A stretch of DNA of 64,000 nucleotides from Polyangiaceae bacterium (GTDB lineage Bacteria > Myxococcota_A > Polyangia > Polyangiales > Polyangiaceae): assembly GCA_025353725.1 (NCBI GenBank), contig JANXOF010000037.1, positions 372,001-436,000 on the forward strand, read 5' to 3'. Positions 5,315-9,436 of the stretch are shown piece after piece. The notes below the pieces were generated by a model. That model did not search any database. It worked only from the letters and a program-made list of their open reading frames with translations, and was not told the origin of the DNA. A program made the position numbers and the translations under genes. Position 1 is the first letter of the stretch; every line of letters starts with the position of its first letter.

Positions 5315-5410
5315 CGCGGCCTACACTACCCCTACCGTTCGCCGCGATCCCGTTTCGTGCGCGGTAGGATGCCACCTTCCTCGAAAATGGGCGGTAGAGT
5401 TCGCGCCTCC

Positions 5411-8400
5411 ATGACCGTGCTTGTCATTGCCGAAAAACCGAGCGTCGCGCGCGACATTGCGCATGTTCTCGGAGCTCGCTCCCGGGGAGACGGCTACTTT
5501 CGGGGCGAGGGGAAGCTCGTCACATGGGCCATCGGGCATTTGGTTGCTCTTGCTGAGCCTCATGAAATGAACCCTGCCTGGAAGAAGTGGCGGCTCGAGG
5601 CCCTGCCGCTGCTTCCCGCGACGTGGCCGCTGACCGTTACCGAAAGCACGCGCGGCCAGTTCGATATCGTCCGTCGGCTGCTTGTTTCGGCTGAGGTCCG
5701 AACGGTGGTTTGCGCGACGGACGCCGGCCGCGAGGGCGAGCTTATCTTTCGCTATATCTACGAGGCTGCGCGCTCTAAGAAGCCCGTAAAGCGCTTATGG
5801 ATTTCGTCGCTCACGCCGGACGCTATTGCTGCGGGGTTTCGTACTCTCCAGGATGCTAAGTCGTTTGATCGATTGGCCGATGCCGCGCGTGCACGGAGCC
5901 GAGCCGACTGGCTCGTCGGGATGAATCTCTCCCGCGCGTACAGCGTTCTCCACGATGACAACCTTTCCGTCGGTCGAGTTCAGACGCCTACGCTTGCTAT
6001 CCTCGTGGCGCGCGAGCTCGAGATCCGAGCCTTCGTTCCCGAAGACTACCTCGAGGTCGTGGCCACGTTTGGGTCCATGGCGCCGCCTGACGAGCCGTAC
6101 GACGGCACGTACGTGCGACCCAATGTGCGTGGGCCCGAGGCGAAGCGCCTGCCGGACGATGGGGTCGAAGCCAACGCGATCCTCAACCGTGCGAAACGCG
6201 GTACGGCGCGGATCGAATCCATCGATCGCCAGTCGCGGCGACTTCCGCCGCCTCAGCTGTACGACCTCACCGAATTGCAACGGCACGCCAATCGAATTTT
6301 CGGTTTCACGGCGGCGCGTACGCTGGAAATCGCCCAAAAGCTTTACGAGCGACGAAAGCTCCTAAGCTACCCACGGACGGACAGCCGCTACCTTTCGCAG
6401 AGCGTTGCGGCCACGCTTCCGTCGATTACGCGCGCCATCAAGGATCGTTACGCGGGGAAGATTGCGGCGGGCACCGGCGAAAAAGAGCTCGGGCCGCGTT
6501 TCGTCGATGACGCGAAGGTCTCTGACCACCACGCGATTGTCCCTACCGAGACGCAGGCGCCCGCTGACCTTACGTCCGACGAGCGATCCATCTACGATCT
6601 TGTATGCCGAAGACTGCTTTCTGCGTGGCACGGTGACCACGTCTACGCCGTGACGACGGTGGCTACGGTCGTCGCGTGTGAAAGCACGCTCGATAGGTTT
6701 GCGAGTTCGGGCACGAGCATCGAGACCGTGGGCTGGAAGGTCCTCGACTTGGGCCGTCCCGCCGTCGAATCGACGCTTCCCGGTGGGCTCACGAAAGGCG
6801 AGCCAAGGCGTGTGACCGCCGCCAAAGCCGTCGCGAAAAAGACGCAACCGCCCGCGCGATTGACAGACGGCACGCTTCTTACCGCCATGGAGACCGCCGG
6901 GCGTACGCTTGACGAGAGGGAGCTCTCGAAGGCCATGCAAGACTGCGGTCTCGGGACGCCCGCAACGCGTGCCTCGATCCTCGAGACGTTGCTGCGCCGT
7001 GAATACGTCATCCGTGACGCAAAGGCATTGCAAGCGACGGACAAAGGAGTCGCGCTGATTGGGGTCGTTCACGAACATGTGAAGAGTCCCGCCATGACTG
7101 GCGAGTGGGAGGCGAAGCTCGCGCGTATCGAACGTGGAGAGGTGAAGCTCGCTGCGTTCATGAGCGAAATCGAGCGTTACGTGACGGAGGTCATCGGCAA
7201 CGTGGCCACGGCCAGCGTTCGAGGTCCTTCGGCCAGCGGTTTGGGAAAAACGACCACGGAGCCTCTCGCCAACACGTCGAATGCCGTCGCCCACTCGAAA
7301 TCGAGCTCATTTTCGTCACGGGCGGAGTCGAACCCGACGGCGACTCCCTCCGTACCAAACGCGAAGGCTCGAAAGCCATCGGACGACCTTGCGAGCGTCT
7401 TGCGCACGTCGTTCGGCTTTCCCTCGTTCCGCCCATACCAAGAAGAGGTTTGCCGCGCGGCCGCGTCTGGACGTGACGTACTCCTCGTGATGCCTACGGG
7501 GGCCGGAAAATCGCTTTGCTATCAACTTCCTGGCTTCGCGCGCGGCGGTACGACGCTCGTTGTGAGTCCGCTCATTGCGCTGATGGAGGACCAAGTGGCG
7601 CAGCTCGTTCGGCGTGGCTTTGTGGCCGATCGTATCCACTCCGGTCGCGATCGACTGGATTCGAGGAATGCTTGCAAGGAGTACCTGGAGGGGCGCCTAG
7701 ACTTTCTCTTTATTGCCCCAGAGCGGCTCAAGGTCCCTGGATTTCCCGAAATGCTCGCGCGCCGGAAACCAACACTCATTGCGATTGATGAAGCTCACTG
7801 CATCTCTCAGTGGGGACACGATTTTCGCCCGGATTACCGAATGCTTGGCGAGCGCTTGCCTCTTCTTCGCCCGGCACCCATCGTGGCCCTTACCGCGACG
7901 GCGACGCCTGCGGTGCAAGATGACATCGTAAAGGAGCTTCGCCTCGAGACCGCGACGCGCTTCATTCATGGATTCCGTCGAATCAACATTGGCGTTGAAG
8001 TCATCGAGCGAAGCCCCGGCCAACGCGCCGACGTCGTGAGGCGTCTCCTTGCCACAAAAGCGCAGCGGCCCGCCATTGTCTACGCGCCCACGCGTAAAGA
8101 GGCCGAAGCGCTGGCGACGGACCTGTCCAAGCGCCTGCCCGCGGCCGCGTATCATGCAGGATTAAGGGCAAACGTGCGCGACGAGGTGCAGTCTGCGTTT
8201 CTCGCCGGGAAGCTCGAGGTGATTGTCGCGACGACGGCGTTTGGTATGGGAATCGACAAGGCGGATGTGCGGACGGTCATCCACACTGCGCTTCCGGCTA
8301 CGCTTGAGGGCTATTACCAAGAAATCGGGCGCGCCGGTCGTGACAGCGCACCGTCACGAGCCATCTTGCTTCACTCGTTCGTCGACACGAAGACGCACGA

Positions 8401-9436
8401 GTTCTTTCTCGAGCGTGACTACCCACATGAGGACGTCCTCAAAGCCATCCAAGAGGCCATCCCGGCATGCGGCACCTCGACGTCGGACCTCGGTACGCGT
8501 TCCGGGGTTCCCTCTGATGTGTTTGAAAAGGCGCTCGAGAAGCTTTGGGTGCACGGTGGCGTCATCATAGACGTCGACGACGTGGTGCGTCTGGGTTCGC
8601 GTGCGTGGAGACCCGCCTATGAGCGGCAGCGTGCGCATAAACGCGACCAAATGAACCGGATGCGACGCTACGCGGAGACGCCGTCATGCCGCATGCTTCA
8701 ACTGATTACTCACTTTGGTGATCAGAACGATAGCGGCCTTGCGTGCGGTATTTGCGACGTTTGCTCGCCCGTCACTTGCGTGGCGCAAGTCTTTCGTGGT
8801 CCGAGCGTAGGCGAAGTGCGGGCCGCAGCTCAGATTGTCGCGGCGCTTCGCCTGCGCGACGGCCGCGCCGTAGGTCAAATGCACCGCGATCTCTTCGCAG
8901 GCAGCGACGTCGACAGGCGTGCGCTGGAGCACGTACTGGGGGGACTCGTGCGCGCAGGAGAGGTGAAGCTCGCCCACGACGAGTTTGTCAAAGACGGCGT
9001 GACGATTACCTTTCAGCGCGTCTACCTTTTGCCTGACGGTCGAGCCGACAACGCACAAGTGAGGGCGCGGGAGTTGGCGATAAGCGAGGTGCCCGATGCG
9101 CAGTCGTCGCGCGTTCGCGGTAGCGTGAAAAAGCGAACCAAGGTCGCCAAGTTGCCCGCGCGTGGTAAGGGCGGTTCGAGTGCTTCAGTGCGTACGGACG
9201 AGGGGAGTGCCATCGCGGATGCGCTGCGGGCCTGGCGAGCGTCGGAGTCGAAGGCGCGCCGCGTGCCGGCGTTCCGCATTCTCACGGACCGAGCGCTTCA
9301 GGCCATCGCGAGTGCGCGTCCTAAGAATGAAGAGGAGCTGCTCGACGTTGCCGGGGTGGCGGCGGCTCTTACGCAGAAATACGGTCGAAAACTTCTAAAA
9401 ATAGTCGCGCAACCGGCTACCGCAAGAGCGCGGTAA
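5411..9436 (+). CDS. DNA topoisomerase III fused to RecQ helicase
   Basis: One uninterrupted 1341-residue reading frame carries two complete enzymes. Residues 1 to about 605 are a type IA topoisomerase III: TOPRIM start VLVIAEKPSVARDIA, the acidic DAGREGE motif with Asp104, and the active-site YPRTDSRYLS with Tyr320, close to where E. coli TopB has it. A Ser/Thr/Ala-rich linker (about 610-660) leads to a RecQ helicase: Walker A MPTGAGKS with Lys700, DEAH at 793-796, helicase-C motif QEIGRAGRD, and a zinc-binding Cys cluster (CRMLQL...CGICDVC). A winged-helix-like region and an HRDC-like domain (about 1258-1335) follow. The domain order unites the partners that act as separate proteins in RecQ/TopoIII double-Holliday-junction dissolution. 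ATG 5411 is preferred because TopoIII proteins begin at this point; the frame extends to 5357. The usual C-terminal topoisomerase zinc ribbon is not seen. Confidence 0.93.
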   Translation: MTVLVIAEKPSVARDIAHVLGARSRGDGYFRGEGKLVTWAIGHLVALAEPHEMNPAWKKWRLEALPLLPATWPLTVTESTRGQFDIVRRLLVSAEVRTVVCATDAGREGELIFRYIYEAARSKKPVKRLWISSLTPDAIAAGFRTLQDAKSFDRLADAARARSRADWLVGMNLSRAYSVLHDDNLSVGRVQTPTLAILVARELEIRAFVPEDYLEVVATFGSMAPPDEPYDGTYVRPNVRGPEAKRLPDDGVEANAILNRAKRGTARIESIDRQSRRLPPPQLYDLTELQRHANRIFGFTAARTLEIAQKLYERRKLLSYPRTDSRYLSQSVAATLPSITRAIKDRYAGKIAAGTGEKELGPRFVDDAKVSDHHAIVPTETQAPADLTSDERSIYDLVCRRLLSAWHGDHVYAVTTVATVVACESTLDRFASSGTSIETVGWKVLDLGRPAVESTLPGGLTKGEPRRVTAAKAVAKKTQPPARLTDGTLLTAMETAGRTLDERELSKAMQDCGLGTPATRASILETLLRREYVIRDAKALQATDKGVALIGVVHEHVKSPAMTGEWEAKLARIERGEVKLAAFMSEIERYVTEVIGNVATASVRGPSASGLGKTTTEPLANTSNAVAHSKSSSFSSRAESNPTATPSVPNAKARKPSDDLASVLRTSFGFPSFRPYQEEVCRAAASGRDVLLVMPTGAGKSLCYQLPGFARGGTTLVVSPLIALMEDQVAQLVRRGFVADRIHSGRDRLDSRNACKEYLEGRLDFLFIAPERLKVPGFPEMLARRKPTLIAIDEAHCISQWGHDFRPDYRMLGERLPLLRPAPIVALTATATPAVQDDIVKELRLETATRFIHGFRRINIGVEVIERSPGQRADVVRRLLATKAQRPAIVYAPTRKEAEALATDLSKRLPAAAYHAGLRANVRDEVQSAFLAGKLEVIVATTAFGMGIDKADVRTVIHTALPATLEGYYQEIGRAGRDSAPSRAILLHSFVDTKTHEFFLERDYPHEDVLKAIQEAIPACGTSTSDLGTRSGVPSDVFEKALEKLWVHGGVIIDVDDVVRLGSRAWRPAYERQRAHKRDQMNRMRRYAETPSCRMLQLITHFGDQNDSGLACGICDVCSPVTCVAQVFRGPSVGEVRAAAQIVAALRLRDGRAVGQMHRDLFAGSDVDRRALEHVLGGLVRAGEVKLAHDEFVKDGVTITFQRVYLLPDGRADNAQVRARELAISEVPDAQSSRVRGSVKKRTKVAKLPARGKGGSSASVRTDEGSAIADALRAWRASESKARRVPAFRILTDRALQAIASARPKNEEELLDVAGVAAALTQKYGRKLLKIVAQPATARAR

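Follow-up and report, generated by a model that had tools for sequence, protein, structure and literature searches.

Does a single gene in the window, the 64,000-nucleotide stretch of Polyangiaceae DNA analysed here, encode a topoisomerase III (TopoIII) and a RecQ helicase in one working polypeptide, and what might such an enzyme do? RecQ unwinds DNA in the 3'-5' direction and can migrate junctions, TopoIII carries out single-strand passage and is stimulated by RecQ in vitro, and double Holliday junctions are dissolved by BLM or Sgs1 together with Top3. Whether bacteria possess a RecQ–TopoIII 'toposome' comparable to BLM–TOP3A is a live dispute, for which a natural fusion provides a test case. 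No physical interaction between Escherichia coli RecQ and TopoIII has been reported (PMC7140829), a 2026 study found that E. coli TopoIII acts with RecG and not with RecQ (PMC13244152), and both the review and the 2026 study argue against a bacterial toposome (PMC7140829; PMC13244152). We found no paper on a TopoIII–RecQ fusion in the open-access literature; a database annotation or a subscription paper may exist.

The gene is a single frame with zero internal stops on the plus strand, ending at 9436. An in-frame GTG at 5357 could add 18 residues upstream, but the alignments of relatives begin at the ATG at 5411, and the coordinates 5411–9436 given by an earlier, sequence-only reading of this DNA are therefore correct. 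The frame encodes a complete TopoIII core, a disordered linker of about 50 residues and a complete RecQ helicase, in this order (Table 1). All six Pfam domain matches exceed their cut-offs: Toprim (21–151), Topoisom_bac (170–602), DEAD (692–854), Helicase_C (891–995), RecQ_Zn_bind (1086–1136) and HRDC (1285–1350), all numbered from 5357 (subtract 18 for the ATG at 5411). The single frame rules out a chance juxtaposition of co-transcribed topB and recQ genes.

Table 1. Features of the TopoIII–RecQ fusion in the window
Feature	Position	Strand	Basis
TopoIII–RecQ fusion gene	5411..9436	+	1341 aa; single uninterrupted frame, profile matches, alignment of relatives
TopoIII half, residues 1–604	5411..7222	+	TOPRIM E8, D104, R107, E108; Tyr320-Pro-Arg322; E. 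coli TopoIII fold
Inter-enzyme linker, residues ~605–650	7223..7360	+	predicted disordered (pLDDT < 50), fast evolving
RecQ helicase core, residues 656–1000	7376..8410	+	Walker A Lys700, DEAH 793–796, motif VI 973–978
Extra winged-helix domain, residues 1001–1065	8411..8605	+	between helicase lobe 2 and zinc hairpin; predicted structure, spacing
RecQ zinc-binding domain, residues 1066–1120	8606..8770	+	Cys1093/1112/1115/1118
Second winged helix with long beta-hairpin (RQC-like), residues ~1132–1206	8804..9028	+	structure prediction
HRDC domain, residues ~1267–1332	9209..9406	+	Pfam, predicted structure

The draft genome consists of 98 contigs, and an error of sequencing or assembly could in principle have joined neighbouring topB and recQ genes, or have hidden a stop or frameshift in the linker, as the earlier reading had cautioned. 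The same in-frame architecture, junction included, is present in about 65 other, independent loci from Myxococcota, Acidobacteriota and Bdellovibrionota, some on long contigs and one in the finished chromosome of Nannocystis poenicansa (NZ_CP114040.1). Because the fusion recurs in this way, sequencing error is excluded, and we give an artefactual join next to no credence. Of 379 genomes surveyed in the window's phylum, 84 carry the RecQ subfamily defined by the fusion's RecQ half; inspection of the loci showed that 47 of the 84, counting the window's own, encode both halves in a single frame. One further genome adds to the 47, with both matches on one contig and, by their coordinates, in one frame. 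The apparent splits between TopoIII and RecQ in two others (G113 and G315) fall at contig ends, which again speaks against an artefact. Comparison of the fused loci revealed no conserved neighbours except open reading frames overlapping the fusion gene itself, and no plasmid or phage record covering 80% of the fusion was present among the matches listed, the plasmid list extending to at most 5000 records.

The N-terminal half belongs to the topoisomerase III (type IA, TopB) family by the features tested. It scores above the cut-offs of two NCBIfam TopoIII models (NF005829, 656.7 versus 597; TIGR01056, 553.4 versus 515.75) and is ~32% identical to E. coli TopoIII across its length in a structure alignment. 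In 68 aligned fused proteins, E8, D104, E108, Y320 and R322 are invariant where covered, the catalytic tyrosine noted earlier, Tyr320, being among them. The accompanying statement that the TOPRIM acids are intact holds for E8, D104 and E108; the second aspartate of the DxDxE motif is replaced by Gly106. The resulting motif, D104-A-G-R-E108, recurs without exception in 67/67 fusions and in the 28/28 stand-alone TopoIIIs sampled, so the glycine characterizes this branch of TopoIII and does not mark a defect. A domain II segment of variable length (~226–256) occupies the position expected of the decatenation loop, a comparison made by place and not by functional signature.

The C-terminal half is a member of the RecQ family but not a standard RecQ equivalog, scoring 388.4 against a cut-off of 219.8 for the family model TIGR00614 and 477.2 against the required 640.2 for the equivalog model TIGR01389. 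It matches the RecQ cores of E. coli, Deinococcus and human. K700, D793-E-A-H796, R974, R977 and the zinc ligands Cys1093, Cys1112, Cys1115 and Cys1118 are invariant wherever they are covered in the 68 aligned proteins, and the Pfam zinc-domain and HRDC matches bear out the proposal of a complete RecQ with an HRDC-like end. HRDC is absent from 16 of the 68 fused relatives, some of which are merely cut by contig ends (for example L035, L038 and L246). The Pfam RQC model found no match in the fusion, and the assignment of the RQC-like winged helix comes from structure prediction alone. Structure comparison did not assign the extra winged helix that precedes the zinc domain to a named PDB domain. 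It is not specific to the fusion: stand-alone members of the RecQ subfamily have it as well, and a similarly long spacing between motif VI and the zinc cysteines is found in seven RecQs outside the subfamily (L053, L056, L072, L074, L098, L103 and L110), which perhaps contain the same domain.

AlphaFold2 models support these assignments. The RecQ half was predicted with a pLDDT of 90.6 and a pTM of 0.87, and residues 1–1194 with a pLDDT of 88.9 and a pTM of 0.59; the confident models of both halves resemble E. coli TopoIII and RecQ. Because the pTM of the joint model is low, it does not fix the relative placement of the two halves, and no catalytic interface is predicted. Among fused relatives the linker is rich in alanine, proline and arginine and ranges from 28 to 380 residues, with a median of 70 as measured by a 593–659 cut.

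The earlier reading also pointed to a missing TopoIII zinc ribbon, and comparison with 28 stand-alone TopoIIIs agrees. All 28 have a C-terminal tail with at least four cysteines, arranged in a clear four-cysteine motif in 21 of them, whereas none of the fusions has two or more cysteines, and thus a cysteine pair, in its linker. As sister stand-alone TopoIIIs are cysteine-rich at this position and fusion linkers are not, the linker and RecQ have taken the place of the cysteine-rich tail. The zinc, winged-helix and HRDC domains of RecQ probably assume the DNA-targeting role of the lost tail. E. coli TopoIII is likewise without a zinc ribbon, so its absence is not unique to the fusion. A second, divergent TopoIII clade (L298, L299 and L302–L306) has a long C-terminal tail with nine cysteines; six of the seven genomes sampled also contain the fusion.

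The fusion is likely to be the only TopoIII of its host. Besides the fusion, the genome encodes one other type IA topoisomerase, a TopA carrying three zinc ribbons, and one other RecQ-family protein above the cut-off, a canonical 690-residue RecQ with RQC and HRDC domains. No separate TopoIII was found in this genome, which is 97.6% complete; a true absence is therefore likely rather than certain. The earlier reading had considered that separate topB and recQ genes might accompany an inactive fusion. An ordinary RecQ is indeed present, but there is no separate TopoIII and no sign of inactivity.

Across eight pairs, dN/dS is 0.11–0.25 for TopoIII, 0.07–0.14 for the RecQ core and 0.25–0.96 for the linker: both halves are under purifying selection, and the linker drifts. 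Together with the ~65 other loci and the invariant active-site residues, this establishes the proposed fusion as genuine, conserved and catalytically complete. In the TopoIII tree, the fused halves group together with a support of 100, and no stand-alone protein falls among them. Nor did the 379 genomes yield a free TopoIII of this clade: apart from those at contig ends, all matches belonging to it (at least 54% identity) are part of long fused frames. The subfamily of the RecQ halves has strong support, and within it fused proteins are interleaved with ~36 stand-alone relatives. The RecQ tree implies 13–14 changes between the fused and stand-alone states, at least six of them forced by well-supported branches, and a test on 74 rows rejects trees that place the fused RecQ halves in one clade (log-likelihood difference 463; p-AU 6.5e-51). 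The trees of the two halves share 31 of 62 splits. Among well-supported splits, of which the two trees have 32 and 33, 26 are common to both (0.17 with shuffled labels), with one conflicting placement.

Because the fused TopoIIIs form one clade and the two trees agree, the fusion most likely arose once, and independent fusions are not favoured. This answers the question of how widespread the fusion is, which the earlier reading had left open: it occurs in at least three phyla, most likely from one origin. The simplest history suggested by the trees would be one fusion, followed by joint inheritance and transfer of both halves, with TopoIII then lost about a dozen times; this count is uncertain since the deep branching of the RecQ tree is weakly supported. 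Re-fusion would require free members of the fused TopoIII clade, and none were found. The stand-alone RecQs of the subfamily, from Acidobacteriota, Bdellovibrionota and some Polyangia-like genomes, share ~45–65% identity with the RecQ half but have no TopoIII half; most branch inside the fused clade, where loss of TopoIII from a former fusion is the best interpretation. One such loss would have occurred within the window's own genus. A genome of this genus (G008) encodes a 616-residue RecQ that is sister to that of a fused relative (G010); no TopoIII match at E <= 1e-50 was found in G008. This stand-alone gene (L258, 5926–7776) lacks HRDC, adjoins a type I restriction-like helicase gene and has no TopoIII relic upstream. 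No relic was found upstream of the other stand-alone subfamily RecQ genes either; a match at L276 (E 0.45) is noise, and L312 is itself a fused locus. A stand-alone RecQ (L262, in G019, 5857–8019) forms the most basal branch of the subfamily and is a candidate for the pre-fusion state.

What would the joined enzymes do? We think it probable that the gene encodes a natural, covalent RecQ–TopoIII toposome combining unwinding with strand passage; its coupling and substrates would be as follows. The 3'-5' helicase, on its flexible linker, would unwind or migrate joined DNA and hand single strands to the N-terminally tethered TopoIII, which would cleave one strand via Tyr320, pass another through and reseal the break. 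The tether would stand in for the protein–protein contacts of BLM or Sgs1 with Top3 and hold the strand-passage enzyme, in a 1:1 ratio, where unwinding happens. Its likely substrates would include late recombination intermediates (double Holliday junctions and hemicatenanes) and converging forks. In Listeria, recQ and topB lie on one strand, 23 bp apart and in the order opposite to that of the fusion, an adjacency that suggests, independently, joint action in bacteria. A Listeria record of 594 kb (NZ_LR134400.1), which is labelled plasmid 3 and contains guaB, recQ and topB, resembles a piece of chromosome. In Bacteroidales, topB and recQ occur on one strand ~2.6 kb apart (L050, L051).

The linker and the loss pattern could also be explained by loose tethering, in which the two enzymes are translated together but act independently, RecQ being selected and TopoIII an optional passenger. 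The predicted disorder and variable length of the linker fit this explanation, as does the imbalance of the inferred losses, about a dozen for TopoIII and none for RecQ. Yet the TopoIII half evolves under strong purifying selection, its active site is fully conserved in all fused genomes, and the lack of any free TopoIII of the fused clade would be unexpected if tethering were irrelevant; we therefore consider loose tethering unlikely. The repeated loss of TopoIII with retention of RecQ does mean that some lineages can do without the coupling.

The fusion resembles several known systems in part. E. coli RecQ and TopoIII belong to the same two enzyme families, have folds similar to those of the fusion halves and function as a pair in vitro; they are unlinked proteins whose partnership in vivo is contested (PMC7140829; PMC13244152), whereas the fusion is one chain with an added winged helix before the zinc domain. 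In BLM–TOP3A–RMI1/2 and Sgs1–Top3–Rmi1, a RecQ-type helicase is kept with TopoIII, as in the fusion, but through protein contacts and RMI subunits instead of a covalent linker. Among the domains assigned to the fusion, no RMI-like one was noticed. We infer that the fusion works like BLM–TOP3A, but covalently linked. Reverse gyrase, finally, combines an SF2 helicase-like module and a type IA topoisomerase in one chain, and the fusion, which likewise joins these two classes of enzyme, might be a related machine that introduces positive supercoils. We regard this as highly improbable: the helicase-like module of reverse gyrase is N-terminal and not a RecQ, whereas that of the fusion is C-terminal, which makes the domain order opposite, and is a RecQ with zinc, winged-helix and HRDC domains. 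The fusion also scores 110.4 against a cut-off of 471.7 for TIGR01054, far below what membership of the reverse gyrase family requires.

On the cellular role, our tentative proposal, to which we give somewhat less than even weight, is a self-contained bacterial dissolvase: one polypeptide that would by itself migrate junctions with its RecQ half and pass strands with its TopoIII half, the two enzymes being true partners in a large bacterial group, unlike in E. coli. The fusion might instead act mainly at replication forks, removing precatenanes or resolving converging forks, with junction dissolution incidental. E. coli TopoIII has been reported to act on precatenanes at forks (PMC7140829), and RecQ and TopoIII are credited with resolving converging forks by Suski and Marians (2008), as cited in PMC13244152. 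No conserved replication genes lie near the fusion, however, and as sequence and neighbourhood do not decide the matter, we view a predominant fork role as possible but rather doubtful.

A conserved, catalytically complete fusion of a single clade constitutes Rosetta-stone evidence, that is, a gene fusion implying partnership, for bacteria other than E. coli. It offers an enzyme with a fixed 1:1 ratio for mechanistic and structural study, and RecQ-only relatives, even within the same genus, serve as natural controls. Because the evidence from E. coli stands against a general bacterial toposome, the fusion lineages are a better place than E. coli for testing the idea.
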